64,000 nt of DNA from Pseudomaricurvus alkylphenolicus (GTDB lineage Bacteria > Pseudomonadota > Gammaproteobacteria > Pseudomonadales > Cellvibrionaceae): the NCBI RefSeq assembly GCF_011683955.1, contig NZ_JAAQPI010000002.1:200157-264156 (forward strand). Reading direction: 5' to 3'. Under the pieces are notes generated by a model. It had not been told where the DNA came from. It searched no databases and saw only the letters and a list, made by a program, of their open reading frames with translations. Positions 46,306 to 64,000 of this stretch are shown here, piece after piece (positions within the stretch are counted from its first letter, which is position 1; each line of letters starts with the position of its first letter). The position numbers were made by a program, and so were the translations under genes.

Positions 46306-47508
46306 TCAATAAACTTCAAATAATCCGGCAGCACCCATACCACCGCCGATACACATAGTCACCACCACATACTTAACACCACGGCGCTGCCCTTCCAGCA
46401 ACGCATGGCCCACCATGCGGGCACCGCTCATACCAAAGGGATGACCAATGGAAATTGCACCACCGTTAACATTCATCAGCTCATTATCAATATCGAGCTT
46501 GTCGCGACAATAAATCACCTGAGACGCAAACGCCTCATTCAACTCCCAAAGACCGATATCCCCAACCGACAACCCATGACGATCCAGCAACTTCGGAATG
46601 GCGAACACCGGCCCAATACCCATCTCATCGGCCTTACAGCCGGCAACCGCCAAACCACGATAAGCCCCCAGTGGCTTTAGCCCCTGTTGCTCCGCCAATT
46701 TAGAATCCATTAACACGCAAGCGGACGCACCATCGGACAACTGCGAGGCATTACCCGCCGTAATGAATTTACCCTCTGGAACCCACTTACCGTCCTTCCA
46801 GACCGGCTCAAGTCCCTGCAGACTCTGCAGCGTTGTTGACGGACGATTACACTCATCCCGAGCTATGGTCACCTCCTCGTAAGTGGTCTCCTTAGTCTCG
46901 CGATTGAACAAGGCCTTGGTCGTCGACATCGGCACAATCTCATTCTCAAACAGACCCGCCTCTTGCGCCGCCGCCGTACGCATCTGGCTCTGCAGCGCGT
47001 ACTCATCCTGTGCATCACGGGAAATACCGTAGCGCTCAGCCACAATCTCCGCCGTTTCAATCATCGGAATATAAGCCGTGGGATCCACCTCCAACACGGC
47101 TTTGGACACATTTCGATACGTATTTTTGTGCTTATTCTGAGTCAAAGAAATCGACTCAACACCACCGGCCACCGCCACATCATACTCATTACACATGATG
47201 CTCTTGGCAGCCGTGGCTATGGTCATCAGACCGGAGGAACACTGACGCTCCATCGCCATCCCGGAAGTCGACTCCGGCAATCCACCCGCCAGCGCACACA
47301 AGCGGCCCAGATTATAAGCCTGGGTGCCCTGCTGTGCCGCCGCGCCCATAACACAGTCATCCACCAGATTGGGATCGATACCCGCCCGCGCTACCGCCGC
47401 ACGAACGGCATGTCCACCCATGGCCGGCGCTTCGGTATCATTGAATGCACCACGAAAAGACTTGCCCAGTGCTGTACGGGCGGTTGCTACAATTACGGCT
47501 TCGCGCAT
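46306..47508 (-). CDS. Acetyl-CoA C-acyltransferase (thiolase)
   Basis: This enzyme cleaves a 3-oxoacyl-CoA with CoA. The 400-residue protein has the nucleophile Cys90 in MERQCSSGL, the NEAFASQ segment, the His in [11 protein letters not shown] and the second Cys in [13 protein letters not shown]. It is not the FadA6 type, which is encoded at 52134, so the cluster carries two thiolases. It is the last gene of the leftward steroid arm, 30 bp after the MaoC gene, and would act on side-chain or late ring products. The ATG has AAGG eight bases upstream. Confidence 0.9.
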
Positions 47509-47538
47509 AATAATTACCTTAAGAAATCTGTCTGAAAA

Positions 47539-47991
47539 TCAGTAATAACGAGAGATGGTATCTACTACACAAGCGGGGCGATCATTGCCCTCAATCTCAA
47601 CCGTTACCCGTATGGTGGCCTGCACGCCCCCCTTGACCTCTTCCACCTTGATTAACTCACCGACACCCCGCACACGGGAATTGACGGTAACCGGCGATGG
47701 GAAACGGATTTTTTCGCAACCGTAGTTCACGCCCATGGAAATTCCCTGCACATCAACAATCTGTGGCAAGAACAGATTTACCAAAGACAGCGTCAAATAG
47801 CCGTGGGCAATGGTCGCCTTGAAAGGGCCGTCTTTAGCGCGTTCAGGGTCCACATGAATCCACTGGTGATCCCCTGTGGCCTCGGCAAACAAATTGATAC
47901 GCTCCTGATCAATCTCAAGCCAGTCGCTTTCACCCAGGCGATTACCCACGGCATTGCTTAATTCAGAGGGTGTTTTAAAAACCGTTGTCAT
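47539..47991 (-). CDS. MaoC-family (R)-specific enoyl-CoA hydratase
   Basis: This 150-residue hot-dog-fold hydratase has the catalytic loop IDQERINLFAEATGDHQWIHVDPERAKDGPFKATIAHGYLTLSL, containing the conserved Asp and His, followed by GVNYGCEKIRFPSPV. It would hydrate an enoyl-CoA intermediate. In actinobacterial steroid clusters, MaoC-like proteins act in side-chain oxidation; which step this one serves is unknown. It lies between the thiolase and ipdF genes with short gaps, all on the same strand. Confidence 0.9.
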   Translation of the reverse strand: MTTVFKTPSELSNAVGNRLGESDWLEIDQERINLFAEATGDHQWIHVDPERAKDGPFKATIAHGYLTLSLVNLFLPQIVDVQGISMGVNYGCEKIRFPSPVTVNSRVRGVGELIKVEEVKGGVQATIRVTVEIEGNDRPACVVDTISRYY

Positions 47992-48011
47992 AGAACTTCT
48001 CCGTCGTTACT

Positions 48012-48815
48012 TCAGCTGCGCTGACTGGAACAGGAAATGATTTCACCGGTGAGGTAGCTGGAATAATCGGAAGCGAGGAATACCATAATATTGGCCACTT
48101 CCCAGACTTCGGCGCCCCGACCATAGGCTTCTTTGCCTTCCAGCTCCGCCAACAGCTCAGGCGGAGCGGACTTCTTCAACATGGGATGAACCGCCAGAGA
48201 CGGCGAAACCGCGTTGATACGTACACCAAACTCCGCTGCTTCCAGCGCAGCGCAGCGCGTTAGCGCCATGACACCGGCTTTTGCCGCAGCGTAGTGGGAC
48301 TGCTCTTTTTGCGCCCGCCAGCCCAGCACAGAAGCATTGTTGACGATCACTCCGCCCCCCTTGCCGGATTCATAACGAGTCTTCATCACTTTCATCATGT
48401 GACGGGTCATGCGCATGGTGCCATTCAGGGTTACGTCGATGACCTTCATCCACTCCGGATCTTCCATTTCGATCAGAGCTTTGGTTGTACCCAAACCGGC
48501 GTTGTTGATGAGTACATCGGTGCCGGCGAGCTTGTCTTCGGCAAATGCGATCAAGGCCTGAACCTGCTCTTCATCCGCCACATTGCAGACTTTGCCATAG
48601 ACCTGCTCCAGACCGGTTTCTTCCTGCAGTTTTTTTACCGATTCCTGCAGACGACCATCGTGAATATCGCTGATCACAATAGCGCGACAGCCTTCTTCCA
48701 CGCACTTTTTCGCTGCCGCAAAACCAATGCCCGCACCTGCTGCCGCAGTGATCAGGACGGAGCGGTGTTTGAGTAAACCGTGACCGGACACGTATGTGGG
48801 ATTGTGAATATCCAT
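48012..48815 (-). CDS. ipdF: IpdF-type short-chain dehydrogenase (steroid ring C/D degradation)
   Basis: IpdF of actinobacteria oxidoreduces the 5-hydroxyl/oxo group of methylhexahydroindane-propanoate-derived CoA esters. The 267-residue SDR has the cofactor motif TAAAGAGIGFAAAKK. Its catalytic region VNNASVLGWRAQKEQSHYAAAKAGVMALTRCAALEAAEFGVRINAVSPSLA is, as I recall, nearly identical to actinobacterial IpdF, and so is the ending SDYSSYLTGEIIS. That level of match, together with EchA20, IpdC and IpdAB in the same cluster, supports the assignment. The start ATG has GGAG six bases upstream. Confidence 0.85.
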   Translation of the reverse strand: MDIHNPTYVSGHGLLKHRSVLITAAAGAGIGFAAAKKCVEEGCRAIVISDIHDGRLQESVKKLQEETGLEQVYGKVCNVADEEQVQALIAFAEDKLAGTDVLINNAGLGTTKALIEMEDPEWMKVIDVTLNGTMRMTRHMMKVMKTRYESGKGGGVIVNNASVLGWRAQKEQSHYAAAKAGVMALTRCAALEAAEFGVRINAVSPSLAVHPMLKKSAPPELLAELEGKEAYGRGAEVWEVANIMVFLASDYSSYLTGEIISCSSQRS

Positions 48816-48828
48816 AGGGAACTCCGCG

Positions 48829-50031
48829 TTATTTTGCTGCTACGCGAGGTTCCTTGGGCATACCCAAACCCCGCTCGGCAATAATGTTCTTTTGTATTTC
48901 GTTGGTGCCGCCGTAAATCGTGTCGGATCTGACAAACAGATACATGGCTTGCAGACGACTGAGTTCGTAGGGGCCACCCTCAAGAACCTGACTTTCCGGT
49001 CCGAGCACATCCATCGCCAACTCGCCCATGGTGCGGTGCCAGGTCGCCCAGAACAGCTTATAGATCAGCGCTTCTTTCTGCAGGCTGCCATCGCTGCCCC
49101 CCTGGCCGGATAACATGCGCATGGAGTTGTAGCGCATGATCTTCAGTTCCGTGTGCGCCTTTGCCAGACGTTGGCGAATAGCGGGGTTCTTGGCGGCCCC
49201 ATTACGCCTGGCGATTTCAATCACCTGATTGAGCTCATTTTGGAACTGCATCTGCTGGCCCAGCGTCGACACACCACGCTCAAAGCCCAGCAACCCCATG
49301 GCGACCTTCCAGCCGTCACCCGGTGCCCCAACGATGTCACCGGCGTCGCACTCGGCATCGTCAAAGAACACTTCGTTGAATTCACAGGTGCCTGTGATTT
49401 GCTCGATACCACGAACGTCAATGCCGGGCTGATCCATTTTCATCAGGAAAAAACCCAGACCTTTGTGTGCCACCGAATCAGGATCGGTACGAGCAATCAC
49501 AAAAATATAGTCAGACTCATGGGCTAAAGAAGTCCACACTTTCTGGCCATTGATAATCCATTTGCCCTTTTCTTCGTCGAAGCGGGCACGGGTTTTCACG
49601 TTGGCCAAATCGGAACCGGCGCCGGGTTCGGAGTAACCCTGGCACCAGAGCTCGGTACCGGCAACAATGCCGGGCAGGTACTTCTGTTTTTGCTCCTCGG
49701 AACCAAAGGCAATAATGGTGGGACCGGCCAGGCCCTCACCAATATGACCGACATGGCCCGGAGCACCTGCGCGTGCATACTCCTCGTTAAAGATCACCTG
49801 CTGCTCAATACTGCAGCCGCGACCACCGTATTCGGTTGGCCAGCCGATACAGGTCCAGCCACCTTCAGCCAGCTTTTGCTCCCAGCGTTTGCGCTCCTCG
49901 GGATACATGTGCTCGTCGCCGGGGCCGCCGCGAAACCTGAGCTTGGCGAATTCCCCGGTCAGGTTTTGCTGCAACCAGGTGGCAACTTCCTGGCGAAACT
50001 GTTCGTCTTCGGCACTAAAACTGAGTTTCAT
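48829..50031 (-). CDS. fadE30: Acyl-CoA dehydrogenase, FadE30-like (catalytic type)
   Basis: This 400-residue flavoprotein oxidises a steroid-derived acyl-CoA. Seen features are CQGYSEPGAGSDLANVKTRA, NGQKVWTSLAHESDYIFVIARTD, the catalytic glutamate E251 in LLGFERGVSTLGQQ, and DTIYGGTNEIQKNIIAERGLG at the end. The glutamate position matches that of FadE26, isovaleryl- and long-chain dehydrogenases. The wording is very close to mycobacterial FadE30, which acts on 5-OH-HIP-CoA. The next gene upstream encodes a smaller dehydrogenase lacking this glutamate, so the two may form an alpha2beta2 enzyme. Confidence 0.82.
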   Translation of the reverse strand: MKLSFSAEDEQFRQEVATWLQQNLTGEFAKLRFRGGPGDEHMYPEERKRWEQKLAEGGWTCIGWPTEYGGRGCSIEQQVIFNEEYARAGAPGHVGHIGEGLAGPTIIAFGSEEQKQKYLPGIVAGTELWCQGYSEPGAGSDLANVKTRARFDEEKGKWIINGQKVWTSLAHESDYIFVIARTDPDSVAHKGLGFFLMKMDQPGIDVRGIEQITGTCEFNEVFFDDAECDAGDIVGAPGDGWKVAMGLLGFERGVSTLGQQMQFQNELNQVIEIARRNGAAKNPAIRQRLAKAHTELKIMRYNSMRMLSGQGGSDGSLQKEALIYKLFWATWHRTMGELAMDVLGPESQVLEGGPYELSRLQAMYLFVRSDTIYGGTNEIQKNIIAERGLGMPKEPRVAAK

Positions 50032-50048
50032 GTCATTTACCTCTGCCG

Positions 50049-51230
50049 TTACGCCACTTCGCCGTCGAGCAGCATCGCTGCCAGACGTTCACGATGATAG
50101 TCACCGTTACCCAGCAGATGCTCACTGGCCTTGGCGCGCTTGAAGTACAGATGTACGTCGTATTCCCAGGTAAAGCCGACACCACCATGCATCTGGATGG
50201 CTTCTCCGGCATTGCTGAAATACACATCGGAGCAGTAGGACTTGGCGACGCTGGCGGCCTCGTTCAATTCGCCGGCCAGTTCACCGCCAGTCAGAGCTTC
50301 CTGAGCGACACAAGCCGCGTAGTAGACACCGGAGCGAGCCACTTCGACCTGGGTCATCATGTCGGCAGCCTTGTGTTTGATCGCCTGAAAACTGGCGATG
50401 GGGCGATTAAACTGGGTGCGTTCCTTGGTATATTCAACCGTGATATCCATCACCTGTTGGGCACCGCCCATTTGCTCCGCCGCCAACGCGACTGTGGCCA
50501 GGTTAATGATGGTCTGCAGTTGCGGCCAGGCTTGTCCCGGCTCACCCATCAAAGCGGTGGGCGGCACTCGAACCCGATCCAGAGAAATATTGGCCAGCTT
50601 GCGCGTTTGGTCCATGGTCGGCAAAATTTGACGATTGATTCCGAGAGTATCTGCCGGAACGACAAACAAACTGATACCATCTGTGCCGCAGCTGCCGGGT
50701 TCCCTCGCAGCAACAATCAGCAACTCTGCACTGCCACCATCGACCACGTAGCGCAATTCACCGCTGAGCATATAGTCATCGCCATCACGGGTAACGGTGG
50801 CTTCTACCGCCTCCGCGTGCCACTGCCCACCAAACTGACCGGCGGCTGCACCCGTGTGGGCCAGGGTTGCCGTCATGCCTTCGCAGATACGGGGCAGGTA
50901 ACGGGTTTTCTGTTCTTCAGTCCCGGCAACCAGCAACGCATTGGTTGCCAGACACACGGTGGAAAAGAAAGGCGAGCACAACAGAAACCGCCCCATCTGC
51001 TCCACCATGGCGACCAATTCCACGTAGCCCAATCCCATACCCCCGTATTGTTCGGGAATATGAATCGCCTGCCAGTACATGTCGGCACAGATCCGTTGCC
51101 ACAGCTCCGCATCGAAGCCATGTTCACTGACCATGGCCGCCCGCACCGCGGCGCTGTCCGATACTTCGGCCAGAAATGCTTGCGCGGTGTCGCGTATCAT
51201 CAACTGCTCATCGGTAAACGCGAAGTCCAT
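50049..51230 (-). CDS. Acyl-CoA dehydrogenase-like subunit without the catalytic glutamate
   Basis: This 393-residue protein has the acyl-CoA dehydrogenase fold (FTDEQLMIRDTAQAFLAE, IPEQYGGMGLGYVEL, RTQFNRPIASFQAIKHKAADM, IQMHGGVGFTWEYDVHLYFKRA). The helix that normally carries the FER glutamate reads INLATVALAAEQ, and no YEGT-type base is present either. Steroid degraders use such chains as partners of catalytic ones in alpha2beta2 enzymes. It lies 17 bp upstream of the catalytic FadE30-like gene, consistent with a pair. Its own active-site role may be limited to FAD or CoA binding. Confidence 0.82.
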   Translation of the reverse strand: MDFAFTDEQLMIRDTAQAFLAEVSDSAAVRAAMVSEHGFDAELWQRICADMYWQAIHIPEQYGGMGLGYVELVAMVEQMGRFLLCSPFFSTVCLATNALLVAGTEEQKTRYLPRICEGMTATLAHTGAAAGQFGGQWHAEAVEATVTRDGDDYMLSGELRYVVDGGSAELLIVAAREPGSCGTDGISLFVVPADTLGINRQILPTMDQTRKLANISLDRVRVPPTALMGEPGQAWPQLQTIINLATVALAAEQMGGAQQVMDITVEYTKERTQFNRPIASFQAIKHKAADMMTQVEVARSGVYYAACVAQEALTGGELAGELNEAASVAKSYCSDVYFSNAGEAIQMHGGVGFTWEYDVHLYFKRAKASEHLLGNGDYHRERLAAMLLDGEVA

Positions 51231-51232
51231 CG

Positions 51233-52117
51233 TCAGCTACCGTAGACTTTTTGGGCGGGGACTTCTTTGGCCAGCAGTTGGTCAATAGCAGAGCCAACTT
51301 CAGCGGGCTCCCAGCGGGCGCCCTTATCCACCCCTTCGGTGGTGCGCCAACCGTCGGCGATGGAAATCCTGCCACCTTCGGCTTCAAAAATTCGACCGGT
51401 GATGGCTTTGGAATCTTCTGCTGCCAACCAGGCCAACAGGGAAGACACATTTTCCGGTGCCCAGTAATCAAAACTGCCGTCTTCGGGTTTGGCCATGCGG
51501 GTGGCCATTTCTTCCACGGCCGTGGTCATTCCGGTACGAGCAGCGGGAGCGATGGCATTTGCGGTAACACCGTAACGCGCCAGCTCCACCGCCTGGTTCA
51601 AGGTCAAGGCAGCAATACCGGCTTTGGCAGCTGCGTAGTTAGACTGTCCGACCGAACCCTGCAAACCTGCACCCGAAGTGGTATTGATGATTCGTGCATC
51701 CACCTCGCGCCCTTCTTTCGACAAACCGCGCCAGTAATGCACGGCGTGAGAGGTGATGCAGAAGTGGCCCTTCAGATGCACACTCATAATCGCATCCCAA
51801 TCGGCTTCGCTCATAGACGCAAACATGCGATCGCGATTGATGCCTGCGTTGTTCAACACAGCGTGCAGATCACCGAAGGCGTCAATAGCCTGCTTGACGG
51901 CATTGGCACTGTCGTCGTAGTTGGTGATGTCAGAGGTATTTACCACCGCTTTGCCACCGGCCTGTGTGATTTCGTCAACGACAGCGCTGGCGGCCGCTTC
52001 GTTGATGTCATTGACAACAACGCAAGCACCTTCGGCAGCAAAAACTTTCGCATGAGCAGCACCCAGACCACCGCCGGCCCCGGTGATGATGACAACTCGG
52101 TTATTCAGAATTCCCAT
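51233..52117 (-). CDS. Short-chain dehydrogenase of the steroid cluster (Rv3548c-like)
   Basis: This 294-residue SDR has the cofactor motif ITGAGGGLGAAHAKVFAAEGACVVVNDI, the NNAG motif in LNNAGINRDRM, and the catalytic TTSGAGLQGSVGQSNYAAAKAGIAALT with Tyr and Lys. It resembles the hydroxyacyl-CoA dehydrogenase half of 17-beta-HSD4 proteins and an SDR in the mycobacterial KstR2 regulon. A 3-hydroxyacyl-CoA or hydroxysteroid substrate is inferred. The ATG at 52117 is chosen because it begins the Rossmann fold; a longer frame to 52219 overlaps the thiolase gene. Confidence 0.82.
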   Translation of the reverse strand: MGILNNRVVIITGAGGGLGAAHAKVFAAEGACVVVNDINEAAASAVVDEITQAGGKAVVNTSDITNYDDSANAVKQAIDAFGDLHAVLNNAGINRDRMFASMSEADWDAIMSVHLKGHFCITSHAVHYWRGLSKEGREVDARIINTTSGAGLQGSVGQSNYAAAKAGIAALTLNQAVELARYGVTANAIAPAARTGMTTAVEEMATRMAKPEDGSFDYWAPENVSSLLAWLAAEDSKAITGRIFEAEGGRISIADGWRTTEGVDKGARWEPAEVGSAIDQLLAKEVPAQKVYGS

Positions 52118-52133
52118 AATATGTTCTGCCTTT

Positions 52134-53282
52134 TTACAGTCTTTCGATAATGGTGACGTTGGCCTGACCACCACCTTCGCACATGGTTTGCAAACCAAAG
52201 CGACCGTTGCTTCTTTCAAGCTCGTGCAACAGAGTCGTCATCAGTTTTGTGCCGGTTGCCCCCAGTGGGTGACCCAAGGCAATAGCACCACCGTTAACGT
52301 TGGTTTTGGCGTGGTCATAACCGGTTTCTTTAAGCCAGGCCATGGCGACCGAGGCAAAGGCCTCGTTAATTTCCACCAAATCGATATCCGCCAGGCTCAT
52401 ACCGGATTTCTTTAACGCGTGCTCAGTAGCGGGGATGGGCGCGGTCAGCATCCAGATAGGATCATCTGCGCGTACACTCATATGATGTATGCGCGCACGC
52501 GGTGTCAGCTGGTAGCGTTTTAGCGCCGCCTCGGACACCAGCAACAGGGCAGAAGCCGCGTCGCAGGTTTGCGAAGCCACCCCTGCGGTCACCTTGTCAC
52601 AACCGAAAATACCTTCCAGTTCTGCCATTTTTTCCAGGCTGGACTGGCGCGGAGTTTCATCCATGGAAACACCGGCGATCGGCACAATCTCACGATCAAA
52701 GCGGCCTTCTTCAATGGCCTTGAGGGCGCGGTTGTGTGACTCCAGGGAGTAGACTTCCAACTCTTGGCGTTCGAGCCCCCACTTGTCGGCAATCATTTGC
52801 GCCGAGTTAAATTGCGTCGGCGGTACGTCACCATAGCGTTTGACCCAACCCTCAGAACCGGTGAACGGATTGGTGAATCCCATGGGTTCGGCGGCGATCA
52901 TGGCCGAAGAAATCGGGATCTGGGTCATGGTCTGAACACCACCGGCCACTACGACATCCTGAGTACCCGACATGATGGCCTGGGCGGCAAAGTGCACTGC
53001 CTGCTGGGAAGAGCCACACTGGCGGTCTACCGTGGTGCCGGGCACCGCCTGATCCAGACCCGCCGCCAGCCAACAGGTGCGGGCGATATCGCCGGCCAGG
53101 GGACCGATGGTGTCGACACAGCCGAAGATCACGTCGTCATAATCCGCATCGGGAACGCCATTGCGCTCTACCAGTGCCTTGAGGACATGCCCTCCCAGGT
53201 CGGCGGCATGGATACCGGCAAGTCCGCCTTTACGGCGGCCGGTGGGGGTACGAATGGCATCAACAATATAGGCTTCCGCCAT
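52134..53282 (-). CDS. fadA6: Steroid ring degradation thiolase FadA6
   Basis: FadA6 thiolyses the opened C-ring acyl-CoA late in HIP degradation. The 382-residue protein has AYIVDAIRTPTGRRKGGLAGIHAADLG, nucleophile Cys89 in TTVDRQCGSSQQA, VEINEAFASVAMAWLKE, the active His in GGAIALGHPLGATG, and MCEGGGQANVTIIERL. From memory it follows mycobacterial FadA6 along the whole length, including ARIHHMSVRADDP. The ATG has AGGAG eight bases upstream. It has its own 150-bp leader containing a small palindrome, and precedes the SDR by 16 bp. Confidence 0.85.
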   Translation of the reverse strand: MAEAYIVDAIRTPTGRRKGGLAGIHAADLGGHVLKALVERNGVPDADYDDVIFGCVDTIGPLAGDIARTCWLAAGLDQAVPGTTVDRQCGSSQQAVHFAAQAIMSGTQDVVVAGGVQTMTQIPISSAMIAAEPMGFTNPFTGSEGWVKRYGDVPPTQFNSAQMIADKWGLERQELEVYSLESHNRALKAIEEGRFDREIVPIAGVSMDETPRQSSLEKMAELEGIFGCDKVTAGVASQTCDAASALLLVSEAALKRYQLTPRARIHHMSVRADDPIWMLTAPIPATEHALKKSGMSLADIDLVEINEAFASVAMAWLKETGYDHAKTNVNGGAIALGHPLGATGTKLMTTLLHELERSNGRFGLQTMCEGGGQANVTIIERL

Positions 53283-53308
53283 GATTGAGCTCCTGCTAAG
53301 AGAATTCG

Positions 53309-54496: not shown

Positions 54497-54505
54497 GGCG
54501 ATCTC

Positions 54506-55669: not shown

Positions 55670-55681
55670 GGGTCTGCACCT

Positions 55682-56437: not shown

Positions 56438-56453
56438 GAAAAACTCCTGGCAT

Positions 56454-57512
56454 TTACATCAATGTGGATAAGTTGTTTAAAGTCGCTTGTGCTTCGTCGA
56501 TGATAGACTGCATCAATTCAGCACCGGTCGGCAGGTCGGTAATCGCACCGGCCACCTGTCCGCTTGGCAGTATCCCTTTGTCAGGGTGCCCCTTCACCAT
56601 TGCTTCCTGAATCATCATGGGTGCGTTGGCTGCCATTAGCGTTTGCCCGAAGCTGAGGCCATTGGACTGCTTCATTTGCCATCCGGAACGCAGCATATCC
56701 ACCAGAGAACCGCCGGTGATTTTGGTAAACGCCAAACCGTTTTTGACAGCCAACAACAACATTCCCAATGCCGAGGTCTGTTGCAGTTCTCGCAGGCAGG
56801 GGTTATTGATCATTCGCTGGGGCATGCCGTCGAGTTTTTTGCTGACAATGATTTGCTCAGTCGGAGCCTTGACATAGTGCTGTTTGGTCTGTGTCGGCAC
56901 GGGGCTTTCCTGGGTCATCAGAAAACGGGTGCCCATGGCGATACCGGCGGCCCCATAGGACAAGGCCGCCACCAAACCGCGTCCGTCCTTGAAGCCTCCC
57001 GCCGCAACCACGGGTACCTCCAAGGCATCGACAACCTGAGGCAACAAAATGCTGCTGGACACAGAACCCGTGTGACCACCGCCCTCTCCGCCTTGGACCA
57101 CAACAGCATCGGCTCCCATTTCGACGGCCTTGACGGCATGTTTGAGCGCCCCCACGGTGGGGATACAAACAATGCCGGCATCTTTGAGCTTCTGAATCAT
57201 GGCTTTTGATGGCGATCGGCTATAGCTCACCGCTTTGACACCGTGAAAGATACAGGTATCGATAATATCGTTGGCACCCGGTGTATACATATGAAAGTTC
57301 ACACCAAAGGGCTTATTGGTCTTTTCCTTAATGGCGATAATACCCTGCTCGACTTCCTGCGGAGTCATCACAGCACCGGCAAGAAAACCAAAGCCACCTG
57401 CATTACAGGTGGCGGCGACCAAATTGGGATCAGCCACCCAGCCCATTGCCGTTTGAATAACCGGGTATTCACAGCCCAATAGTTGAGTTAAAGGTGTTTG
57501 TAAAACGGACAT
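56454..57512 (-). CDS. ipdC: IpdC-type flavin-dependent oxidoreductase (nitronate monooxygenase fold)
   Basis: IpdC introduces a ring double bond in the 5-hydroxy-methylhexahydroindanone CoA ester before D-ring opening. The 352-residue TIM barrel binds FMN and has CEYPVIQTAMGWVADPNLVAATCNAGGFGFLAG, then VVQGGEGGGHTGSVSSSILLPQVVDAL, VVAAGGFKDGRGLVAALSYGAAGIAMGTRFL and the C-terminal segment. Nitronate monooxygenases share the fold, but the length and steroid context favour IpdC. The ATG at 57512 is used; a TTG one codon upstream is in frame. Confidence 0.82.
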   Translation of the reverse strand: MSVLQTPLTQLLGCEYPVIQTAMGWVADPNLVAATCNAGGFGFLAGAVMTPQEVEQGIIAIKEKTNKPFGVNFHMYTPGANDIIDTCIFHGVKAVSYSRSPSKAMIQKLKDAGIVCIPTVGALKHAVKAVEMGADAVVVQGGEGGGHTGSVSSSILLPQVVDALEVPVVAAGGFKDGRGLVAALSYGAAGIAMGTRFLMTQESPVPTQTKQHYVKAPTEQIIVSKKLDGMPQRMINNPCLRELQQTSALGMLLLAVKNGLAFTKITGGSLVDMLRSGWQMKQSNGLSFGQTLMAANAPMMIQEAMVKGHPDKGILPSGQVAGAITDLPTGAELMQSIIDEAQATLNNLSTLM

Positions 57513-57574
57513 CAATGCGCACTCAATCTCAACCGCAATGGTGCGGCTTTCTATTAGAAAATCGTTAACGAGAG

Positions 57575-57594
57575 CGACCGGAACAATCCGGTCG
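57575..57594 (-). terminator. Hairpin between the hydratase gene and ipdC
   Basis: CGACCGG-AACAAT-CCGGTCG forms a perfect 7-bp GC stem just past the stop of the upstream hydratase gene. On the minus strand there is no strong T-run directly after it, only TTTTC some 15 bases on. It may attenuate transcription between the ipdA-ipdB-hydratase and ipdC-echA20 parts of the cluster. Confidence 0.45.
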
Positions 57595-57607
57595 TTGGAA
57601 AAAAGCG

Positions 57608-58495
57608 TTACGCTTCTTCGGAGGCCTGCGCCTTGTTTTCCCGCGCCATGGCCTTGGCATCGTAGCCACCCAACTTATCCCCGGACATAATGTCGTTGTG
57701 AGTGTGAGCAAAGTGGTGCCAGGCAAAGGCCGCTTCCATACCGGTACGTTTGCCCTGCAGATCTTCAACATGATTGATTGCCTGCTTGGTCAACGCCAAT
57801 CCCATGCGAGGCATGGCGGCAACTTTCTCAGCCAGCTTTTGCACATCAGCAGCCAGGGTTTCACGACTGGACACCTGATTTACCATGCCCATTTGATAAG
57901 CTCGGTCGGCGGACATGCGGTCGCCGGTAAAGAGGAACTCTTTGGCAATGCGAGGATTTAATTCGAACGGGTGAGCAAAGTACTCGACACCCGGAATGCC
58001 CATGCGCACCACGGGATCGGAAAAGAAGGCATCGTCAGTGGCGACAATCAGGTCGCACACCCACGCCAACATCAGACCGCCGGCGATACAGGCGCCCTGC
58101 ACGGCTGCGATGGTAGGCTTGGGAATATCCCGCCAGCGTCGGCACATGCCCAGATACGCCTCCGCCTCGCGCACGTAGAGAAATTCACCGCCTTCTTTGT
58201 TGGCGTGGTCGTACCACATTGAGGTACGTTCCTGGCTTAGGTGAATATCGCGCCCGGGTGTACCGATATCGTGACCGGCAGAAAAATGCTTGCCTTCTCC
58301 CTTGAGTACAATGACCTTGACTTCGTCGTCGGCGACTGCACGCTTAAAAGCGTCGTCCAACTCATAGGTCATGCGACCGTTCTGCGCGTTATTGTACTTG
58401 GGACGATTCATGGTAATCGTCGCGATACCATTCTCTGCCGAGTAGAGAACAATATCTTTTTCCATTTCAGCTGCCGCGTTAGTTTCTTCACTCAT
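57608..58495 (-). CDS. Enoyl-CoA hydratase/isomerase family protein
   Basis: This is a 295-residue crotonase. It shows ITMNRPKYNNAQNGRMTYEL, GEGKHFSAGHDIGTPG (oxyanion hole), an insertion ERTSMWYDHANKEGGEFLYVREAEAYL, and GACIAGGLMLAWVCDLIVATDDAFFSDPVVRMGIPGVEYFAHPFEL. The insertion and length of about 295 resemble a mycobacterial hydratase type of unknown substrate. Co-location between ipdB and ipdC suggests a role in steroid or side-chain oxidation. The start ATG follows GGTGA at a close distance. Confidence 0.8.
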   Translation of the reverse strand: MSEETNAAAEMEKDIVLYSAENGIATITMNRPKYNNAQNGRMTYELDDAFKRAVADDEVKVIVLKGEGKHFSAGHDIGTPGRDIHLSQERTSMWYDHANKEGGEFLYVREAEAYLGMCRRWRDIPKPTIAAVQGACIAGGLMLAWVCDLIVATDDAFFSDPVVRMGIPGVEYFAHPFELNPRIAKEFLFTGDRMSADRAYQMGMVNQVSSRETLAADVQKLAEKVAAMPRMGLALTKQAINHVEDLQGKRTGMEAAFAWHHFAHTHNDIMSGDKLGGYDAKAMARENKAQASEEA

Positions 58496-58544
58496 GTCGT
58501 CACCGCTAAAAATGTGTTTGTTAAGTGTATGTTGTTAATGGCGA

Positions 58545-59348
58545 TCAGCGTCGATCGCCAGGAGGATTATCTTTCAGTTGTTTCGCTCGCCAGTTTTCCG
58601 GATCCAGCTGACGAATAATTTCCAACTGCTGCGCGGTTGGCGCCGGGGTCACAGGTACCTCATTCGGTACATGAATTTCAAAACCGGTATTGGCGAGTAC
58701 CTGCTCCACATCGATACCCGGATGCAGACTGCGCAGTTGCAACATGTGGTTGGGACCGTTCCAGTCCATCACGCACAAATCGGTGACCACCAGGCGAATA
58801 TCGATATCCTCCAGCGAATAACCCTTCGGCAAACGCTCCGGGTTGTAGCCAATGGAACCGACCATGTCGCACTCGCCATCCACAAACACACGGATATTGT
58901 GGGCGGGAACAAAAAACGAGTTGGCGTGGTTGATGGAGTTGCCAGGAAAACCGCGAACACCAAGCATCTGCACTTTTGGTTGCTCATAAGTACCACCCAG
59001 AGCGGAGATATTGGCCTGACCGTAGCGGTCAATCTGGGTCGGCCCTACCATCGCGTGGCGCTTGCCACTCCACACATTGTCAAAAATGCGCGAGAAACCC
59101 ATCCAGGTTTCCTGCTTCTGGCCTTCGTGGCTGGAGCGGCCACTAACGGGGTTGGGCTCACTCAACATCCAGGCCTCCGAGTCCGTCATCATCAACTCGG
59201 CATTAAAAGTCTTCATGGCCAGGCTGGCGGCCAGGCGGGGAATCAGTCCGATACCCGTGGCCAACACTTCACCGTCGTTTCGGAACGCTTCGGCTCCGGC
59301 GACAATCATCAATTCTGCCAGGCTGTAATCGGTTGCAGGCGTTGTCAT
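58545..59348 (-). CDS. ipdB: IpdB: beta subunit of the COCHEA-CoA ring-opening hydrolase
   Basis: IpdAB opens the last carbocycle of steroids, hydrolysing COCHEA-CoA by a retro-Claisen-like reaction while having a CoA-transferase fold. This 267-residue subunit has YSLAELMIVAGAEAFRNDGEVLATGIGLIPRLAASLA, GRSSHEGQKQETWMGFSRIFDNVWSGKRHAMVGPTQIDRYGQANISALG, and GFPGNSINHANSFFVPAHN. The ATG at 59348 is preferred; a TTG at 59384 would overlap ipdA. It lies 32 bp after ipdA. General CoA-transferase subunits look similar, but the cluster supports IpdB. Confidence 0.83.
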   Translation of the reverse strand: MTTPATDYSLAELMIVAGAEAFRNDGEVLATGIGLIPRLAASLAMKTFNAELMMTDSEAWMLSEPNPVSGRSSHEGQKQETWMGFSRIFDNVWSGKRHAMVGPTQIDRYGQANISALGGTYEQPKVQMLGVRGFPGNSINHANSFFVPAHNIRVFVDGECDMVGSIGYNPERLPKGYSLEDIDIRLVVTDLCVMDWNGPNHMLQLRSLHPGIDVEQVLANTGFEIHVPNEVPVTPAPTAQQLEIIRQLDPENWRAKQLKDNPPGDRR

Positions 59349-59380
59349 AACTCTCAGTCCTTCAAACTTGGTTGGCAGAA

Positions 59381-60256
59381 TCAATAAACCGGCAGCGACA
59401 GCTGACGAATAGCGTCCAGACCACCCACGGCCTGCTGATATTCCTCTTCCGTCTTACCGGCAATAAACTGGTTAAAATAACCTTCGAAACCGCCGTCTTT
59501 GGCGGAGGCGTTGTAAGCCTTGAAGTGCGCTACATCAAATCCGTAGAGCGGCGTACAAGAAGTGGGGTGAGCACCACCGGGAACATGCACCACCGACTGA
59601 GTCTGGCTGCGCTCCCAATGCACAGAACGGGCTTCATCGCCCTGGGCAAAGGTTTCGGTAGCCACCAATTCATCGCAGCTGACAATCGTGGTTTCCGCGG
59701 CACGGGCAAACCAATCATCCATATACAAATCCGGGCCTTTGATCTGGCAAACCCCGCGCTCATCGGCACGATCGGCATGGATCAAAGCCACATCCAGCTT
59801 CAGTGCCGGCATCGCCACCCACTCCTTGTCATCGTAAGGGCTATCGATCACCTTAAGGCCCGGATTGACCTTAACCACATCCGTACCCAGCCCGAGGCTG
59901 GTGGGGATATAGGGAATTCGCCAGGCGGCGGCGCGCAACCCCAACAGCATCATCCCCTCATCAATCTCCATCGTCTCGATGACGCCGCTTTGACGGGCCT
60001 GGCGGAAATAGGGTTCCAAAGGAATAAAGTCCAGCGAAACAAACGCGAAAACCACCTTCTTGACCTTACCGGACGCACACAACATCCCCACATCCGCACC
60101 ACCGTAGGCAACCACGGTCAGATCTTTAACATCCGAGCGCAACAACTCACGCACCAGCGCCATCGGCTTGCGGCGGGGACCCCAACCCCCGATACCGATG
60201 GTCATGCCATCTTCGATTCGGGCGATAGCCTGGGCGGCCGTCTGCAGTTTACTCAT
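59381..60256 (-). CDS. ipdA: IpdA: alpha subunit of the COCHEA-CoA ring-opening hydrolase
   Basis: This 291-residue partner of IpdB has IARIEDGMTIGIGGWGPRRKPMALVREL, DLTVVAYGGADVGMLCASGKVKKVVFAFVS, IDEGMMLLGLRAAAWRIPYIPTSLGLGTDV, and KLDVALIHADRADERGVCQIKGPDLYMDDWFARAAETTIVSCDEL. These fit the CoA-transferase family I alpha fold and, from memory, actinobacterial IpdA. It is the first gene of the leftward arm; its ATG has AGAGG seven bases upstream, and its promoter lies in the 60257-60517 region shared with the rightward hsaB gene. Confidence 0.84.
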   Translation of the reverse strand: MSKLQTAAQAIARIEDGMTIGIGGWGPRRKPMALVRELLRSDVKDLTVVAYGGADVGMLCASGKVKKVVFAFVSLDFIPLEPYFRQARQSGVIETMEIDEGMMLLGLRAAAWRIPYIPTSLGLGTDVVKVNPGLKVIDSPYDDKEWVAMPALKLDVALIHADRADERGVCQIKGPDLYMDDWFARAAETTIVSCDELVATETFAQGDEARSVHWERSQTQSVVHVPGGAHPTSCTPLYGFDVAHFKAYNASAKDGGFEGYFNQFIAGKTEEEYQQAVGGLDAIRQLSLPVY

Positions 60257-60517
60257 GCCATACCTCTGTTAACCGGTAAATTGGACCCAGGCCACGGCTG
60301 CTCTGGCGCCGGCGCAGGCTTGGGTCAGATTGAAGCCTATTATGGCGAGCAGGTCAGAACAGCGAATCGTCCATCGGGACTAAGGATGAGGAGCGAAAAG
60401 ACGGTTGCAAAAGCCCCTTGACGACTAATGCATTTGCAGTATGTCAGCGGCAGGCGGCTTTGACACTATATCCCTCACTCAGAAAGTGCCTGCATGGCTT
60501 ATACAGTGGGAGACACC
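60257..60517. promoter_or_regulatory. Divergent control region between ipdA and hsaB
   Basis: This 261-bp gap separates the two arms of the steroid cluster and must hold both promoters. It contains TTAACCGGTAAA (60269-60280), a near-palindrome beside the ipdA ribosome site. It also has an inverted pair GACCCAGGCC/GGCTTGGGTC (60284-60326) and a weak -35-like TTGACG at 60418 directed at hsaB, with TATGTC 16 bases on. None matches the actinobacterial KstR or KstR2 site as I remember it, and no regulator gene is adjacent in the window. Confidence 0.4.
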
Positions 60518-61015
60518 ATGGACATGCCCGTAATCGACCCGAAACAGTTTCGCAACGCCCTTGGGGCATTTCCAACCGGTGTCACGGTAGTGACCACCCT
60601 GGATCGCGATGGCAACAAAGTGGGTATGACTGCCAACAGTTTTAACTCCGTTTCCCTGGACCCCATGCTGGTGCTTTGGAGTGTCGCTAAAAGCGCTAAC
60701 GCATTCGATGCCTTTAACTCCGCCGAACACTTCGCCATACACATCCTCAGCGAATCTCAGCAGGCGCTATCAAGCCAGTTTGCCAGCAAAGGCGTAGATC
60801 GATTTGCAGGAGTCGGACACAGTCTCGGCCATGGTGGTGTTCCCGTATTGGACGACTACTGTGCCCGCTTTGAATGCGATATTGAACACCGCTACGAAGG
60901 CGGCGATCACATCATCCTGGTCGGGCGCGTGCAGGCGTTCGATCAACAAGACAAAGCACCGTTGGTATTCCATGCCGGTCGATACGCAGAACTGGCCAAA
61001 TTGGAAACCGCTTGA
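60518..61015 (+). CDS. hsaB: Flavin reductase component of the steroid A-ring monooxygenase, HsaB
   Basis: HsaB supplies reduced flavin to HsaA. The 165-residue protein has FRNALGAFPTGVTVVTTLDRDGNKVGMTANSFNSVSLDPMLVLWSVAKSA and the C-terminal HIILVGRVQAFDQ segment of the flavin reductase (FMN-binding split barrel) family. The ATG at 60518 is preceded by GGGAG at good spacing; an ATG eight codons earlier lacks a site. Similar reductases serve other two-component monooxygenases, but the next gene is HsaA-like and the rest of the hsa pathway follows. Confidence 0.82.
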   Translation: MDMPVIDPKQFRNALGAFPTGVTVVTTLDRDGNKVGMTANSFNSVSLDPMLVLWSVAKSANAFDAFNSAEHFAIHILSESQQALSSQFASKGVDRFAGVGHSLGHGGVPVLDDYCARFECDIEHRYEGGDHIILVGRVQAFDQQDKAPLVFHAGRYAELAKLETA

Positions 61016-61044
61016 ATTTTCAGACAACCAAGAGTGAGATCACC

Positions 61045-62247
61045 ATGACCGTGCAGGAAACAAGTATCCCTCAGGAAATCAACCGTGAAGTACTGGTACA
61101 ACGTGCTCGCGATATGGTCCCCTATCTGGCCGAACAGGCGCCACGCGCTCAGGCCGAACGCAAAGTCCCCGAAGAAACCGTGGCCAAAATGCACGAGGCC
61201 GGCTTCTTTCGTGTCTTGCAACCCAAGCGTTGGGGCGGCTATGAAATGGACCCGCAGGTATTTTTCGACATTCAAATGACACTGGCCGAAGGCTGCATGT
61301 CCACCGCCTGGATTTACGGGGTTATCGCTGTCCACAACTGGCAAATTGCGCTGTTTGACCTGAAGGCGCAGGAAGACGTCTGGAAGGATAACACCAGTGT
61401 CTTGATTGCCTCTTCGTATATGCCTGTGGGCAAAGTAACCCCGGTAGAAGGCGGCTTTAAGTTCAGTGGCCGCTGGGCCTTTTCCAGTGGCTGTGATCAC
61501 TGTGATTGGGTATTCCTGGGTGGCGTGGTGCCTCCAACAGCGGACAACCCCAATCCTGACTATCGAACCTTCCTGGTGCCTCGCTCTGACTTTGAAGTAT
61601 TGGATACCTGGCATACCTTTGGTCTGCAGGGTACCGGCAGTAACGACATCGTTGTAGAAGACGCTTTTGTTCCCGATCATCGGACCCACAGTTCGCTGGA
61701 TGGGTTTAACGGTACCAATCCAGGCATCGATTCGCACAACATTCCACTGTACAAGATTCCGTTTGGTCAGCTTTTCCCTCGTGCGGTTTCCGGCTCCACC
61801 ATTGGCGCCACTCAGGGAGCAATCAACGCTTACCTGAAAGTTGCGTCCAAGCGCGTTGGCACCAACGATGGATCCAAAACAGCAGAGGATCCCTATGCTC
61901 AGATGGCCGTCGCCCGTGCACAGGCTCTGGTGGATCAGTTGAAGATGAAGCTGTACAGCAATATGGACCAGCTGATGAGTGATGCCGTTGAAGGCAAAGA
62001 CACTGAGATGCAAACCCGCATTCAGTATCGTTACGAATCCGCGGCCGTTCCGGAAGCCTGTCTGAACGAAGTGCTTGAGCTGCAGAAAATGTGTGGCGGT
62101 CGTGCCATTTTTACCGACAGCCCACTGCAACGCTTCGTATTGGATATACTCGCCGGGCGGGCACATGTGGCCAACAACCCATATAAGTTTGGACAGAACT
62201 ATGGCGGTGTTCAGCTGGGTCTGGAAAGCACCGACACCTTCCTTTAA
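61045..62247 (+). CDS. hsaA: Oxygenase component of the 3-HSA 4-hydroxylase, HsaA
   Basis: HsaA hydroxylates the phenolic A-ring of 9,10-seco-steroid 3-HSA to the catechol 3,4-DHSA using flavin from HsaB. The 400-residue protein has the acyl-CoA-dehydrogenase-like fold of group D flavin monooxygenases (HEAGFFRVLQPKRWGGYEMDPQVFFDIQMTLAEGCMSTAWIYGV, GGFKFSGRWAFSSGCDHCDWVFLGG, VLDTWHTFGLQGTGSNDIVVEDAFVPDHRT). The length fits the family (about 394). The ATG at 61045 is used. Location 30 bp after hsaB and next to hsaD supports this over other phenol monooxygenases. Confidence 0.83.
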   Translation: MTVQETSIPQEINREVLVQRARDMVPYLAEQAPRAQAERKVPEETVAKMHEAGFFRVLQPKRWGGYEMDPQVFFDIQMTLAEGCMSTAWIYGVIAVHNWQIALFDLKAQEDVWKDNTSVLIASSYMPVGKVTPVEGGFKFSGRWAFSSGCDHCDWVFLGGVVPPTADNPNPDYRTFLVPRSDFEVLDTWHTFGLQGTGSNDIVVEDAFVPDHRTHSSLDGFNGTNPGIDSHNIPLYKIPFGQLFPRAVSGSTIGATQGAINAYLKVASKRVGTNDGSKTAEDPYAQMAVARAQALVDQLKMKLYSNMDQLMSDAVEGKDTEMQTRIQYRYESAAVPEACLNEVLELQKMCGGRAIFTDSPLQRFVLDILAGRAHVANNPYKFGQNYGGVQLGLESTDTFL

Positions 62248-62280
62248 AGCCAACCAGCAAAACACAGCAGAGTGCCAACT

Positions 62281-63111
62281 ATGAGCGTTCCAACAAAACC
62301 TGTAAGCCAAAAAATCGAACTCGCCGATGGACTACAGATCGACTTTACGCGTATGGGCAAAGGCGAGCCTGTCGTCTTTCTGCAAGGCAGTGGTCCCGGC
62401 GCCAGCGGTTGGATGAACTTCCGCTACAACGCCCAGCATTTTGTCGACCAGGGGTTTGAGGTCATTATCCCTGATCTGCCGGGCTTCGGCGACAGCGACA
62501 AACCCGATACCGACTACACACTGGACTTTTTTGTGGAGTCGGTCGTAGGTTTTCTCGATCAGTTGGATCTCAACAGCGTCTCATTGGTGGGCAACTCTCT
62601 GGGCGGCGCGGTCAGCCTCGGCGTCGCACTCGCGCACCCACAGCGAGTGGAAAAATTGATTCTGATGGGTTGCGGCGGCCTTGAAGATGTGGAGGTTTAC
62701 TTCCAGACTATGGAAGGTATTCAGGCAATGACCAAGATTCCGCTCGGATCTCCCGAGTTTACGCCTGAATACCTGAAGGAAGTGCTGAAACTGATCGTGT
62801 TTGATCCAAAACACATTACCGACGAATTGATTGAAGAGCGTTACCGAATTCTCAAAACACAGAATGCGAGCGTCTTCGGGCGCATGCGTATTCCCAATAT
62901 TTCTTCGCGCTTAAACGAAATCAAAGTACCCGTGCTCGGCTTTTGGGGGGCTCAAGATCGCTTCTGTCCTATCAGTGGCGCGGAGAAAATTGTCCGCAGT
63001 TGCGATAACGCCAAAATGATCACACTGAGCCAGTGTGGTCACTGGGTGATGATTGAATACGCCGAACTGTTTAATCGCGAGTGCACAAACTTCCTCAGAG
63101 AAAATTCATGA
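62281..63111 (+). CDS. hsaD: Meta-cleavage product hydrolase HsaD (TesD)
   Basis: HsaD hydrolyses the ring-opened product 4,9-DSHA into 2-hydroxyhexa-2,4-dienoate and the C/D-ring acid. The 276-residue alpha/beta hydrolase has the oxyanion motif GSGPGASGWMNFRYN, nucleophile Ser106 in VGNSLGGAVSLG, Asp226 in WGAQDRFCP and His254 in CGHWVM. This triad and the GSGPGA loop mark the C-C bond hydrolases. A GTG nine bases upstream is in frame. It overlaps the hsaE start by 4 bp. The expected dioxygenase HsaC, which makes its substrate, is not beside it. Confidence 0.87.
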   Translation: MSVPTKPVSQKIELADGLQIDFTRMGKGEPVVFLQGSGPGASGWMNFRYNAQHFVDQGFEVIIPDLPGFGDSDKPDTDYTLDFFVESVVGFLDQLDLNSVSLVGNSLGGAVSLGVALAHPQRVEKLILMGCGGLEDVEVYFQTMEGIQAMTKIPLGSPEFTPEYLKEVLKLIVFDPKHITDELIEERYRILKTQNASVFGRMRIPNISSRLNEIKVPVLGFWGAQDRFCPISGAEKIVRSCDNAKMITLSQCGHWVMIEYAELFNRECTNFLRENS

Positions 63112-63902
63112 GCCTGACAGAACAGCAGCACCGGCAACTGGGTCGGGAGCTATACGACGCCCTGCGTGGCGGCGAAACCCTGACGCCATTCAGCGATCGC
63201 TTTGAGAGCATCGAAATTGAAGATGCTTACCGTATTTCCGAACAGATGCTGGCACTTCGCCTGGAACTGGACGGAGAGAAGGTGGTTGGCAAAAAAATTG
63301 GCGTGACATCCGCAGCGGTACAGGAAATGCTCGGTGTTTTTCAACCTGACTTTGGCTTTTTGACTGATGCCATGGAAGTGACCAATCGCGACAGCGTCAC
63401 CATTGCCGGCAATCTGATTGCGCCCCGCGCAGAAGCGGAGATCGCCTTTTTACTAAAGCAGGATTTGCAGGGACCGGGCGTTACTGAAGCCGATGTACTG
63501 GAAGCGACAGAGTGCATTATGCCCTGTTTCGAAATTGTCGATTCCCGTATTCGGGATTGGAAGATCCGCATTCAGGATACCGTTGCCGATAACGCCTCCT
63601 GCGGTGTCTATGTGATCGGAGAAGAACGTCTGAACCCCCGCCAACTCAATCTGCCGGAACTTGAAGTCAAAGTCTTTAAAAACGGCAATCACATCAGCAG
63701 CGGAAAAGGTTCGGCCGTTCAAGGTAACCCGTTGACTGCTGTCGCCTGGCTGGCCAACACCCTGGGCGAATTTGGCATTCCATTTAATGCCGGAGAGGTG
63801 ATTCTTTCCGGATCGCTGGTTCCTCTCGAACCCGTGGTTGCGGGAGACCGCATGCATATGGAGCTGGTGGGGCTGGGTAGCGCCAGCATTGATTTTGCTT
63901 AA
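63108..63902 (+). CDS. hsaE: 2-hydroxyhexa-2,4-dienoate hydratase HsaE (TesE)
   Basis: HsaE hydrates the dienoate to 4-hydroxy-2-oxohexanoate. The 264-residue member of the 2-keto-4-pentenoate hydratase family has VVGKKIGVTSAAVQEMLGVFQPDFGFLTD, the metal-binding APRAEAEIAFLLKQDL, ECIMPCFEIVDSRIRDW, DNASCGVYVIG and EVILSGSLVPLEPVVAGD. The ATG at 63108 overlaps the hsaD stop (ATGA), a translational coupling. A few oxo-hydroxy decarboxylases share the fold, but the order hsaD-hsaE is characteristic. Confidence 0.87.
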   Translation: MSLTEQQHRQLGRELYDALRGGETLTPFSDRFESIEIEDAYRISEQMLALRLELDGEKVVGKKIGVTSAAVQEMLGVFQPDFGFLTDAMEVTNRDSVTIAGNLIAPRAEAEIAFLLKQDLQGPGVTEADVLEATECIMPCFEIVDSRIRDWKIRIQDTVADNASCGVYVIGEERLNPRQLNLPELEVKVFKNGNHISSGKGSAVQGNPLTAVAWLANTLGEFGIPFNAGEVILSGSLVPLEPVVAGDRMHMELVGLGSASIDFA

Positions 63903-63983
63903 TCAACGATGATTGATCGACTGTGATTGAAGGGCAATTTTTAGAAGCCCCTGAACAACTGAACTCAAGACAGGACAAAGGTA

Positions 63984-64000
63984 ATGTCTAAGAAATTCAA
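63984..64000 (+). CDS. Start of the next gene, probably acylating aldehyde dehydrogenase HsaG (TesF)
   Basis: Only the first codons (MSKKF) are in the window, preceded by AAAGG close to the ATG at 63984. In tes and hsa clusters the gene after the dienoate hydratase is the CoA-acylating propanal/acetaldehyde dehydrogenase. The identity rests on that order alone, since six codons cannot prove it. Confidence 0.35.

Follow-up and report, generated by a model that had tools for sequence, protein, structure and literature searches.

A conserved palindrome at the divergent steroid-degradation operons of Pseudomaricurvus alkylphenolicus, a candidate TesR/TeiR-family control site

Steroid degraders are known among marine gammaproteobacteria, including Cellvibrionales isolates grown on cholesterol (PMC4810484 and PMC5790920, in their accessible portions). 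In the Comamonas testosteroni TA441 cluster, the available text of PMC13101464 gives the gene order scdL1L2, N, K, Y, M1M2, F, E, C1C2, G, D, J, with tesB and tesR in the same cluster, and that source and PMC8700777 describe TesR/TeiR as a positive regulator. Here we analyze a 64,000-nucleotide stretch of Pseudomaricurvus alkylphenolicus (hereafter the window; contig NZ_JAAQPI010000002.1, positions 200,157-264,156, contig label C23; assembly GCF_011683955.1), in which an ipd operon for the C/D rings (HIP-coenzyme A, HIP-CoA) and an hsa operon for the A/B rings diverge across the 237 bp between ipdA and hsaB. Our main subject is a 17-base palindrome in this gap. The source genome spans 8.88 Mb, with completeness rated at 99.6% and assembly contamination given as 2.1%, and the relatives compared include Aestuariicella hydrocarbonica and the same-genus Pseudomaricurvus alcaniphilus (names inferred). 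Genes were called as open frames scored against NCBIfam, TIGRFAM and Pfam models, with bit scores set against curated cut-offs; scd gene names rest on collinearity with the Comamonas operon.

Judging from its genes and their order, the window almost certainly holds a C/D-ring operon and most of an A/B-ring operon of the aerobic 9,10-seco steroid pathway of the Comamonas/TesR kind. As a cluster it is of an ordinary, already published kind; what sets it apart is a control site of fixed promoter geometry that beta- and gammaproteobacteria share, together with an operon whose genes are split between two loci with no overlap. We consider the following overall explanation probable. A steroid- or intermediate-responsive LuxR-type activator of the TesR/TeiR family would bind the palindrome at about -42 and bring RNA polymerase to steroid promoters, that of the ipd operon among them; a second hsa copy of partly different ancestry would have been gained, with complementary losses dividing the operon.

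The palindrome and its promoter geometry

The site, TAGTCC-N4-GGACGAT, lies on the minus strand at 60366..60382, where TAGTCCCGATGGACGAT is an exact match that is conserved in relatives, faces ipdA and is proposed as an activator site centered near -42. CATAAT, the -10-like element of the ipd promoter, stands at a fixed distance from it (60339..60344, minus strand; offset 38-43 from the palindrome start). The site was first spotted by eye in the 170 bases before ipdA across all loci. It was scored over loci with one of three gene orders (divergent, hsaC-to-ipdA and FadD3-to-ipdA), leaving out the duplicates L123, L124, L125 and L127 and loci of other gene orders. The divergent loci are the defining set: the site precedes ipdA in 20 of 20, window counted, with zero, one, two and three mismatches in 9, 7, 2 and 2 of them. 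For the 18 hsaC-to-ipdA loci (L052 and L135, from the same contig, are both counted), the stretch scored before hsaC/tesB lies outside the definition, and zero, one, two and three mismatches occur in 2, 13, 2 and 1; 17 of the 18, Comamonas and Vibrio among them, thus have no more than two. Every scored match in these two sets faces the gene. When each region was shuffled 20 times, matches with two or fewer mismatches never arose in the divergent set and arose in 0.9% in the hsaC set.

Alignment of the 35 sites with at most two mismatches reveals a NATAAT-like element at offset 38-43 from the site start and no visible -35 consensus. With transcription assumed to start 6-7 bases after NATAAT, the palindrome center falls near -42, which is the position of LuxR- and CRP-type class II activator sites. 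Among 43 matches outside the definition (three perfect palindromes enter on both strands), at least four of the five ATAAT bases stand at offset 38 in 14; at the 25 other offsets tried between 20 and 45, the count is 0-5 (mean 0.9). This conservation and spacing make it very likely that the site has a real role in regulating steroid genes. It is not described in the literature searched, which took in few subscription papers.

Exact scans place the site at further steroid genes. For the pattern TMGTCCNNNNGGACGAT, 11 genomes together gave 26 strand matches at 23 places, and its reversed-pattern control gave 4; TAGTCYNNNNGGAYGAT gave 33 matches in 10 genomes or records, against 0. The scanned genomes were picked as carriers, and 8 and 9 of the exact matches are the ipd-operon sites themselves; the excess persists without them. 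Neighborhoods were read for part of the exact matches, a part that leaves out G061:C128 and G059:C63, for example. Aestuariicella sites precede a KshA gene (with one mismatch), a KstD-type gene and another FAD_binding_2 gene, and in HdN1 and four relatives the site stands before a side-chain-type dehydrogenase gene with CoA-ligase, P450 or AraC neighbors. Three of the four exact matches in Comamonas suwonensis are at steroid operons: one precedes an SDR pair that lies upstream of tesB, one precedes tesB itself, and one separates the hsaB- and hsaA-type (tesA1/tesA2) genes; we infer that the SDR pair occupies the place of the steABCD genes. The genome of P. alkylphenolicus has two exact sites, one in the window and one in the gap upstream of fadD3 on contig C45, and a third site with one mismatch, 78 bases upstream of fadD3 on contig C1. 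In P. alcaniphilus (L212, 3926-5921), ipdC and an echA20-type gene lie outside the ipd operon, behind an exact control site. Because this displaced pair and both parts of the divided hsa operon described below keep the site, it appears to persist through operon rearrangement.

These placements bear on a plainer account, in which the cluster is an ordinary one of known type, the missing hsaC and fadD3 reflect simple rearrangement, and the site is a promoter shared by descent. Gammaproteobacterial steroid clusters have indeed been published (PMC4810484 and PMC5790920, going by the passages available), and the operon's ipdA is common, with at least 559 stretches. The site, however, precedes genes that are not homologous to one another (kshA, kstD, the displaced ipdC and those flanking the tesA1/tesA2 gap), which the descent of one promoter does not explain, and we consider this account unlikely.

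The candidate regulator

A LuxR-type protein of about 380 residues with a GerE domain is encoded in all 11 site-bearing genomes, that of P. alkylphenolicus counted. In six of them (G001, G030, G059, G060, G061 and G062) its gene comes after hsaF on the same strand, and in Comamonas it is the last gene of the operon (27% identity). On a Vibrio plasmid, a single protein is the sole such match. That plasmid (Vibrio alfacsensis NZ_CP140104.1, L042; the host is fish-associated) has hsaC and, in unchanged order, the first nine C/D-ring genes at 13958-23654, together with three exact copies of the control site and the TesR-like LuxR gene. In P. alkylphenolicus, LuxR genes of this type lie beside KstD and TetR genes on C2 and beside KshA on C55, and not beside the window cluster; a weaker palindrome between LuxR and KshA on C55 has three mismatches and was not counted. 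Most of the LuxR proteins listed for genomes with the site read NT-V/A/G-RAHLR in the recognition helix; those of eight Halieaceae-type genomes read HTARAQLK. NTARAHLR also occurs in Zhongshania, whose examined ipd locus lacks the site, and NT-A/V-RAQLR occurs in three proteins of G001 and G002, so that the relation between helix and site is only suggestive. From gene linkage and site geometry, it is fairly likely that a TesR-type (TesR/TeiR LuxR-type) protein binds the palindrome.

The palindrome could instead be bound by a TetR-type repressor or an AraC-type regulator encoded nearby. In Aestuariicella, a TetR gene adjoins the kstD gene that carries a perfect palindrome, another lies next to KstD and LuxR on C2 of P. 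alkylphenolicus, AraC genes adjoin sites in four genomes, and palindromes suit TetR dimers in general. Their distribution is patchy, however: TetR genes occur in 7 and close AraC orthologs in 4 of the 11 site-bearing genomes, compared with 11 of 11 for LuxR, which makes either neighbor less likely as the general regulator. A site center near -42 without a -35 consensus is, moreover, activator geometry, and repressor sites usually overlap the core promoter. We therefore assign only a minor share of probability to a TetR- or AraC-type binder.

The original prediction called the cluster KstR2-type, which in the regulatory sense is not supported. No KstR2-like palindrome was matched with two or fewer mismatches in 58755-61221, where the different, conserved palindrome lies, and neither a TetR match nor a kstR2 gene turned up in the proteins scanned between 46306 and minD. 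On these two scans, KstR2 control of this region is rejected.

Several observations weigh against a single TesR-bound site that defines a regulon. The site is absent before the upstream ligase in the FadD3-to-ipdA loci (36, of which L081 was unscorable), where the best match has two mismatches and occurs once; with 35 such loci lacking it, the site cannot be universal. On its hsaB side, the window site has no -10 element at the fixed offset. A scan of the window with two mismatches is at chance level (2 matches, against a shuffle mean of 0.8), and scans with one mismatch fall below the reversed control (5 against 9 and 51 against 96 in two such scans). Significance is drawn from the exact scans only, and the C1 site counts solely by its place. 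Some exact sites lie away from recognized steroid genes (G062:C38 and Comamonas C6), and in L204 a site falls inside an unrelated frame. In their better orientation, the copies on C1 and C45 point away from fadD3, as in relatives; the genes that they once faced are gone there, so only the window site faces a known steroid gene in this genome, and no exact site was found near its KshA or KstD genes. TeiR has also been described as a polar membrane kinase (PMC6678751, in the text available), and the TetR and AraC genes counted above are alternative regulators. Finally, LuxR relatives occur in all 12 genomes tested whose examined ipd locus (11-21 kb) has no exact site, and the argument for TesR is accordingly one of linkage and not of presence. 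The FadD3-to-ipdA loci themselves come from Halieaceae, Spongiibacteraceae and others, with a co-directional CoA ligase before the ipd operon (for example, L059, L071 and L080).

With these points counted, we still lean, if only somewhat, towards TAGTCY-N4-GGAYGAT, centered near -42 and followed by NATAAT at a fixed distance, being an undescribed TesR/TeiR-family site that defines one steroid regulon in beta- and gammaproteobacteria. If so, TesR would be an ordinary DNA-binding class II activator and not only a membrane kinase. A conserved promoter element tied to the TesR gene would also allow regulon prediction in marine and wastewater bacteria and could aid the design of steroid biosensors.

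The divided hsa operon

In the relatives at L043, L044, L045, L046, L051, L065 and L092, fadD3 and hsaC occupy the stretch from ipdA to hsaB, and hsaA is separated from hsaD by an SDR gene; L045 also has a NUDIX gene after hsaF. Gene absences in some rows of one gene-content table may stem from overlap filtering. The window hsa operon lacks fadD3, hsaC, the SDR gene and the NUDIX gene. The best HsaC of the genome (76%; the next best, 42%) is instead encoded on C1, a contig of 370 kb, where hsaC stands beside fadD3; the same SDR and NUDIX genes and a SnoaL gene follow, with the ancestral order kept. Permissive searches found no remnant of hsaB, A, D, E, G or F on C1, and no fadD3, hsaC, SDR, NUDIX or SnoaL gene on C23 save weak matches to SDR paralogs. 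The hsa operon is thus split between C23 and C1 without overlap. Four of the C1 genes derive from three separate places in the ancestral operon with their order kept, which counts against the simple rearrangement of an ordinary cluster considered above.

A third, decaying copy lies on C45 (L169, C45:37000-56999, at 8538-12540), with fadD3 and hsaD as long open frames and hsaA and hsaE in pieces. It has an exact control site, and a weak IS240-transposase match lies nearby (25.4 bits, cut-off 27). In single-gene trees, this copy groups with genome G030 (FadD3 100/98 and HsaD 97/95, ultrafast bootstrap/SH-aLRT). Near it are IpdF-like (51%) and IpdC-like (43%) genes, a hint of a second C/D-ring set.

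Ancestry was read from concatenated trees; the single-gene trees have faulty rows (L132 and L043, SDRx, read from the wrong strand, with branch lengths near 10). The C23 genes pair with G003 (hsa 87.3/84, ipd 99.2/97, SH-aLRT/ultrafast bootstrap), and the C1 genes are parted from G003 by branches supported at 97.6/95 and 82/63. These differing positions favor, with moderate confidence, the acquisition of a second copy and complementary loss over simple relocation. The different ancestry of the C1 block comes from one unrooted tree with those two supports, which tempers the conclusion; on balance, we find it rather likely that the operon became divided when a second copy, partly different in ancestry, was gained and complementary genes were then lost.

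The same difference in tree position between the C1 and C23 blocks, along with the contamination value, would also fit an assembly or binning artefact in which C1 belongs to another organism. C1, however, is a long contig that carries the only close HsaC in a nearly complete genome, and without it the pathway would have no close HsaC. We regard an artefact as quite improbable and retain gain and complementary loss as the preferred explanation. The divided operon and its third, decaying copy would then be a case of an operon split into two complementary parts.

The operons of the window and known systems

The C/D-ring operon comprises 14 genes on the minus strand, from ipdA (60256) down to a thiolase gene (46306), with ipdF, ipdC, echA20 and fadA6 all present. 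IpdA/ScdL1 (59381..60256) and IpdB/ScdL2 (58545..59384), the alpha and beta subunits of the C-ring hydrolase, have 6con and 6co6 as their best solved structures (6con_A for IpdA, E 3.4e-68; alignments to 6co6_B and 6con_B for IpdB), which relates the pair to solved steroid enzymes. The serine of TDSEA in IpdB aligns with Gly57 of RHA1 IpdB, a glycine at the catalytic glutamate position of type I CoA-transferases (PMC5380842, in the portion available). Downstream of these lie a ScdN-type crotonase (57608..58495; NF006140 447.8 bits, above cut-off; 67% identical to its Comamonas suwonensis counterpart), the IpdC/ScdK flavin oxidoreductase (56454..57515; FabK-type TIGR03151 238 bits, below cut-off; counterpart 51%) and an EchA20/ScdY-type crotonase assigned to D-ring opening by homology (55682..56437; NF005925 379 bits, cut-off 260).

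Acyl-CoA dehydrogenases form two pairs, at 53432-55669 and 48829-51230. The first consists of an IpdE1/ScdM-type protein (54506..55669; model scan; Comamonas counterpart 64%) and an IpdE2/ScdM-type protein (53432..54496) that scores 150 bits with NF050027 IpdE2 and does not reach the cut-off of 450. The second, a ScdC-type pair, consists of subunits at 50049..51230 (pimD 209.7 and IpdE2 208.5 bits, below cut-off; counterpart 38%) and 48829..50031 (pimC_large 253.5 bits, below cut-off; counterpart 53%). Between the pairs are the FadA6/ScdF thiolase (52134..53282; NF005865 696 bits, cut-off 591) and a ScdE-type SDR (open frame 51233..52219; NF005861 423 bits, above cut-off), whose family match begins at residue 35 and whose true start is probably near 52117. 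The operon ends with an IpdF/ScdG-type SDR (48012..48815; NF005880 429 bits, cut-off 336; counterpart 67%), a ScdD-type MaoC-family hydratase (47539..47991; PF01575 87.8 bits; counterpart 62%) and a ScdJ-type thiolase (46306..47508; TIGR01930 413.7 bits; counterpart, which precedes the LuxR gene, 69%).

On the plus strand, the hsa operon encodes an HsaB-type flavin reductase (60494..61015; NF045630 146.3 bits, cut-off 230; NF045919 202 bits, cut-off 340), an HsaA-type oxygenase (61012..62247; NF045629 405.8 bits, cut-off 450), an HsaD-type C-C hydrolase (62272..63111; NF045632 184.6 bits, cut-off 400, and BphD 189.6 bits, both below cut-off) and an HsaE-type hydratase (63081..63902; TIGR03220, DmpE, 374 bits, cut-off 408.8). 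The best solved structure for HsaA, 2rfq (E 5.9e-94), is itself an HsaA (3-HSA hydroxylase). The first bases of hsaG (63984..64000) run past the window, beyond which hsaG, hsaF and a TonB receptor gene continue (L010 frames 141-1037, 1003-2073 and 2252-4435), followed by minC and minD. That HsaA, B, D and E all miss the curated equivalog cut-offs of the NCBIfam models scored lowers the claim of strict equivalence and not that of the pathway. No HsaC and no KstR2 were found among the cluster proteins scanned. The rest of the pathway lies elsewhere in the genome, with hsaC and fadD3 on C1, six KshA_C proteins over cut-off, and KstD-type proteins on C2 (60% to an L211 protein) and C45 (533.5 bits, cut-off 788). 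Besides its six KshA_C oxygenases, the genome yields seven strong matches of the HsaC-like extradiol dioxygenase kind and eight of the TesR-like LuxR kind.

These results bear out most of what the original prediction had listed. IpdF, the FadE-like proteins, FadA6, EchA20, IpdC, IpdA, IpdB and HsaB-A-D-E are intact frames with model or structure matches, and the two gene sets do diverge from one control region. Four further genes join that list, those for the ScdJ-type thiolase, the ScdD-type hydratase, the ScdE-type SDR (~51233-52117) and the ScdN-type crotonase. Catabolism genes for the steroid nucleus, as predicted for a gammaproteobacterium, are present for both ring systems once the genes elsewhere in the genome are included.

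Were the enzymes to act on a non-steroid substrate, in another ring CoA-ester pathway, the steroid label would be wrong. The sub-threshold Hsa scores, the several additional HsaC-like ring-cleavage enzymes of the genome and the name of a near relative, hydrocarbonica, with its hint of hydrocarbons, could be read this way. IpdB, however, lacks the CoA-transferase glutamate, like the steroid enzyme (PMC5380842, as far as its text was available), the 14 C/D-ring genes match the steroid operon of Comamonas in order throughout, and in a relative the control element also stands at KshA- and KstD-type genes. A non-steroid role is very improbable, and we keep the steroid assignment.

The suggested closeness to mycobacterial proteins was not borne out. 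A full-length IpdA relative of at least 54% identity occurs in 14 of the 58 genomes searched, the P. alkylphenolicus genome counted. Among at least 559 confirmed stretches in public genomes, the best 80 loci are 69-85% identical in IpdA and mostly gammaproteobacterial, with Pandoraea, Comamonas and Collimonas as betaproteobacterial members at 72-75%. Plasmid matches include Vibrio alfacsensis (74-75%), Novosphingobium (up to 57%) and Tsukamurella (53%). Given these identities, recent transfer from actinobacteria is rejected; the cluster is, by its IpdA relatives, of a proteobacterial lineage, and nothing suggests a late gift from mycobacteria.

Adjoining the steroid operon on the plus strand, a 1092-residue frame (42874-46152) encodes a single chain with biotin carboxylase, biotin carrier and carboxyltransferase domains. 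It stays below the cut-off of each of the 25 NCBIfam models shown for it; it could serve propionyl-CoA from steroids. Farther upstream (32844-42655, plus strand) are genes for HlyD, an ABC ATPase and ABC-2 membrane proteins, after which come those for an outer-membrane efflux protein and an RND pump of the CusA/CzcA type. An Rfam scan of the window at gathering score found no RNA family, and a tRNA scan found none.

Compared with the TA441 mega-cluster (tesB-scdL1L2-...-scdJ-tesR; tesG-scdA), the window has the same 14 C/D-ring genes in the same order, as checked on C. suwonensis. There, hsaC is followed by ipdA, ipdB, crotonase, ipdC, crotonase, two dehydrogenase, fadA6, SDR, two dehydrogenase, ipdF, MaoC, thiolase and LuxR genes, whose products (L323, L324) are 38-75% identical to the 14 window proteins. 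C. suwonensis also has the same palindrome before tesB and in the tesA1/tesA2-type gap, and its LuxR gene at the operon end. In contrast to TA441, the window operon has no tesB (hsaC) at its head and no tesR at its end, its hsa genes diverge beside the ipd operon, and hsaC and fadD3 lie on another contig. Aestuariicella hydrocarbonica and other Cellvibrionaceae-like genomes have divergent ipd and hsa operons and the same palindrome, with IpdA at 77-85% in the closest; these closest genomes keep fadD3-hsaC-hsaB-hsaA-SDR-hsaD-hsaE-hsaG-hsaF in one operon, whereas the P. alkylphenolicus genome has two loci. The KstR2 regulon of Mycobacterium and Rhodococcus includes homologous IpdA, IpdB, IpdC, IpdF, EchA20 and FadA6 enzymes, but in the scans made the window shows neither KstR2 nor a KstR2-like palindrome and has a different, activator-like site instead. 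The literature searched, some of it available in part, gives no DNA site for TesR. Like the positive, LuxR-type TeiR/TesR regulation of Comamonas, the system described here combines a LuxR-type protein linked to a steroid operon with positive-regulator geometry, and the palindrome is proposed as its site in beta- and gammaproteobacteria.

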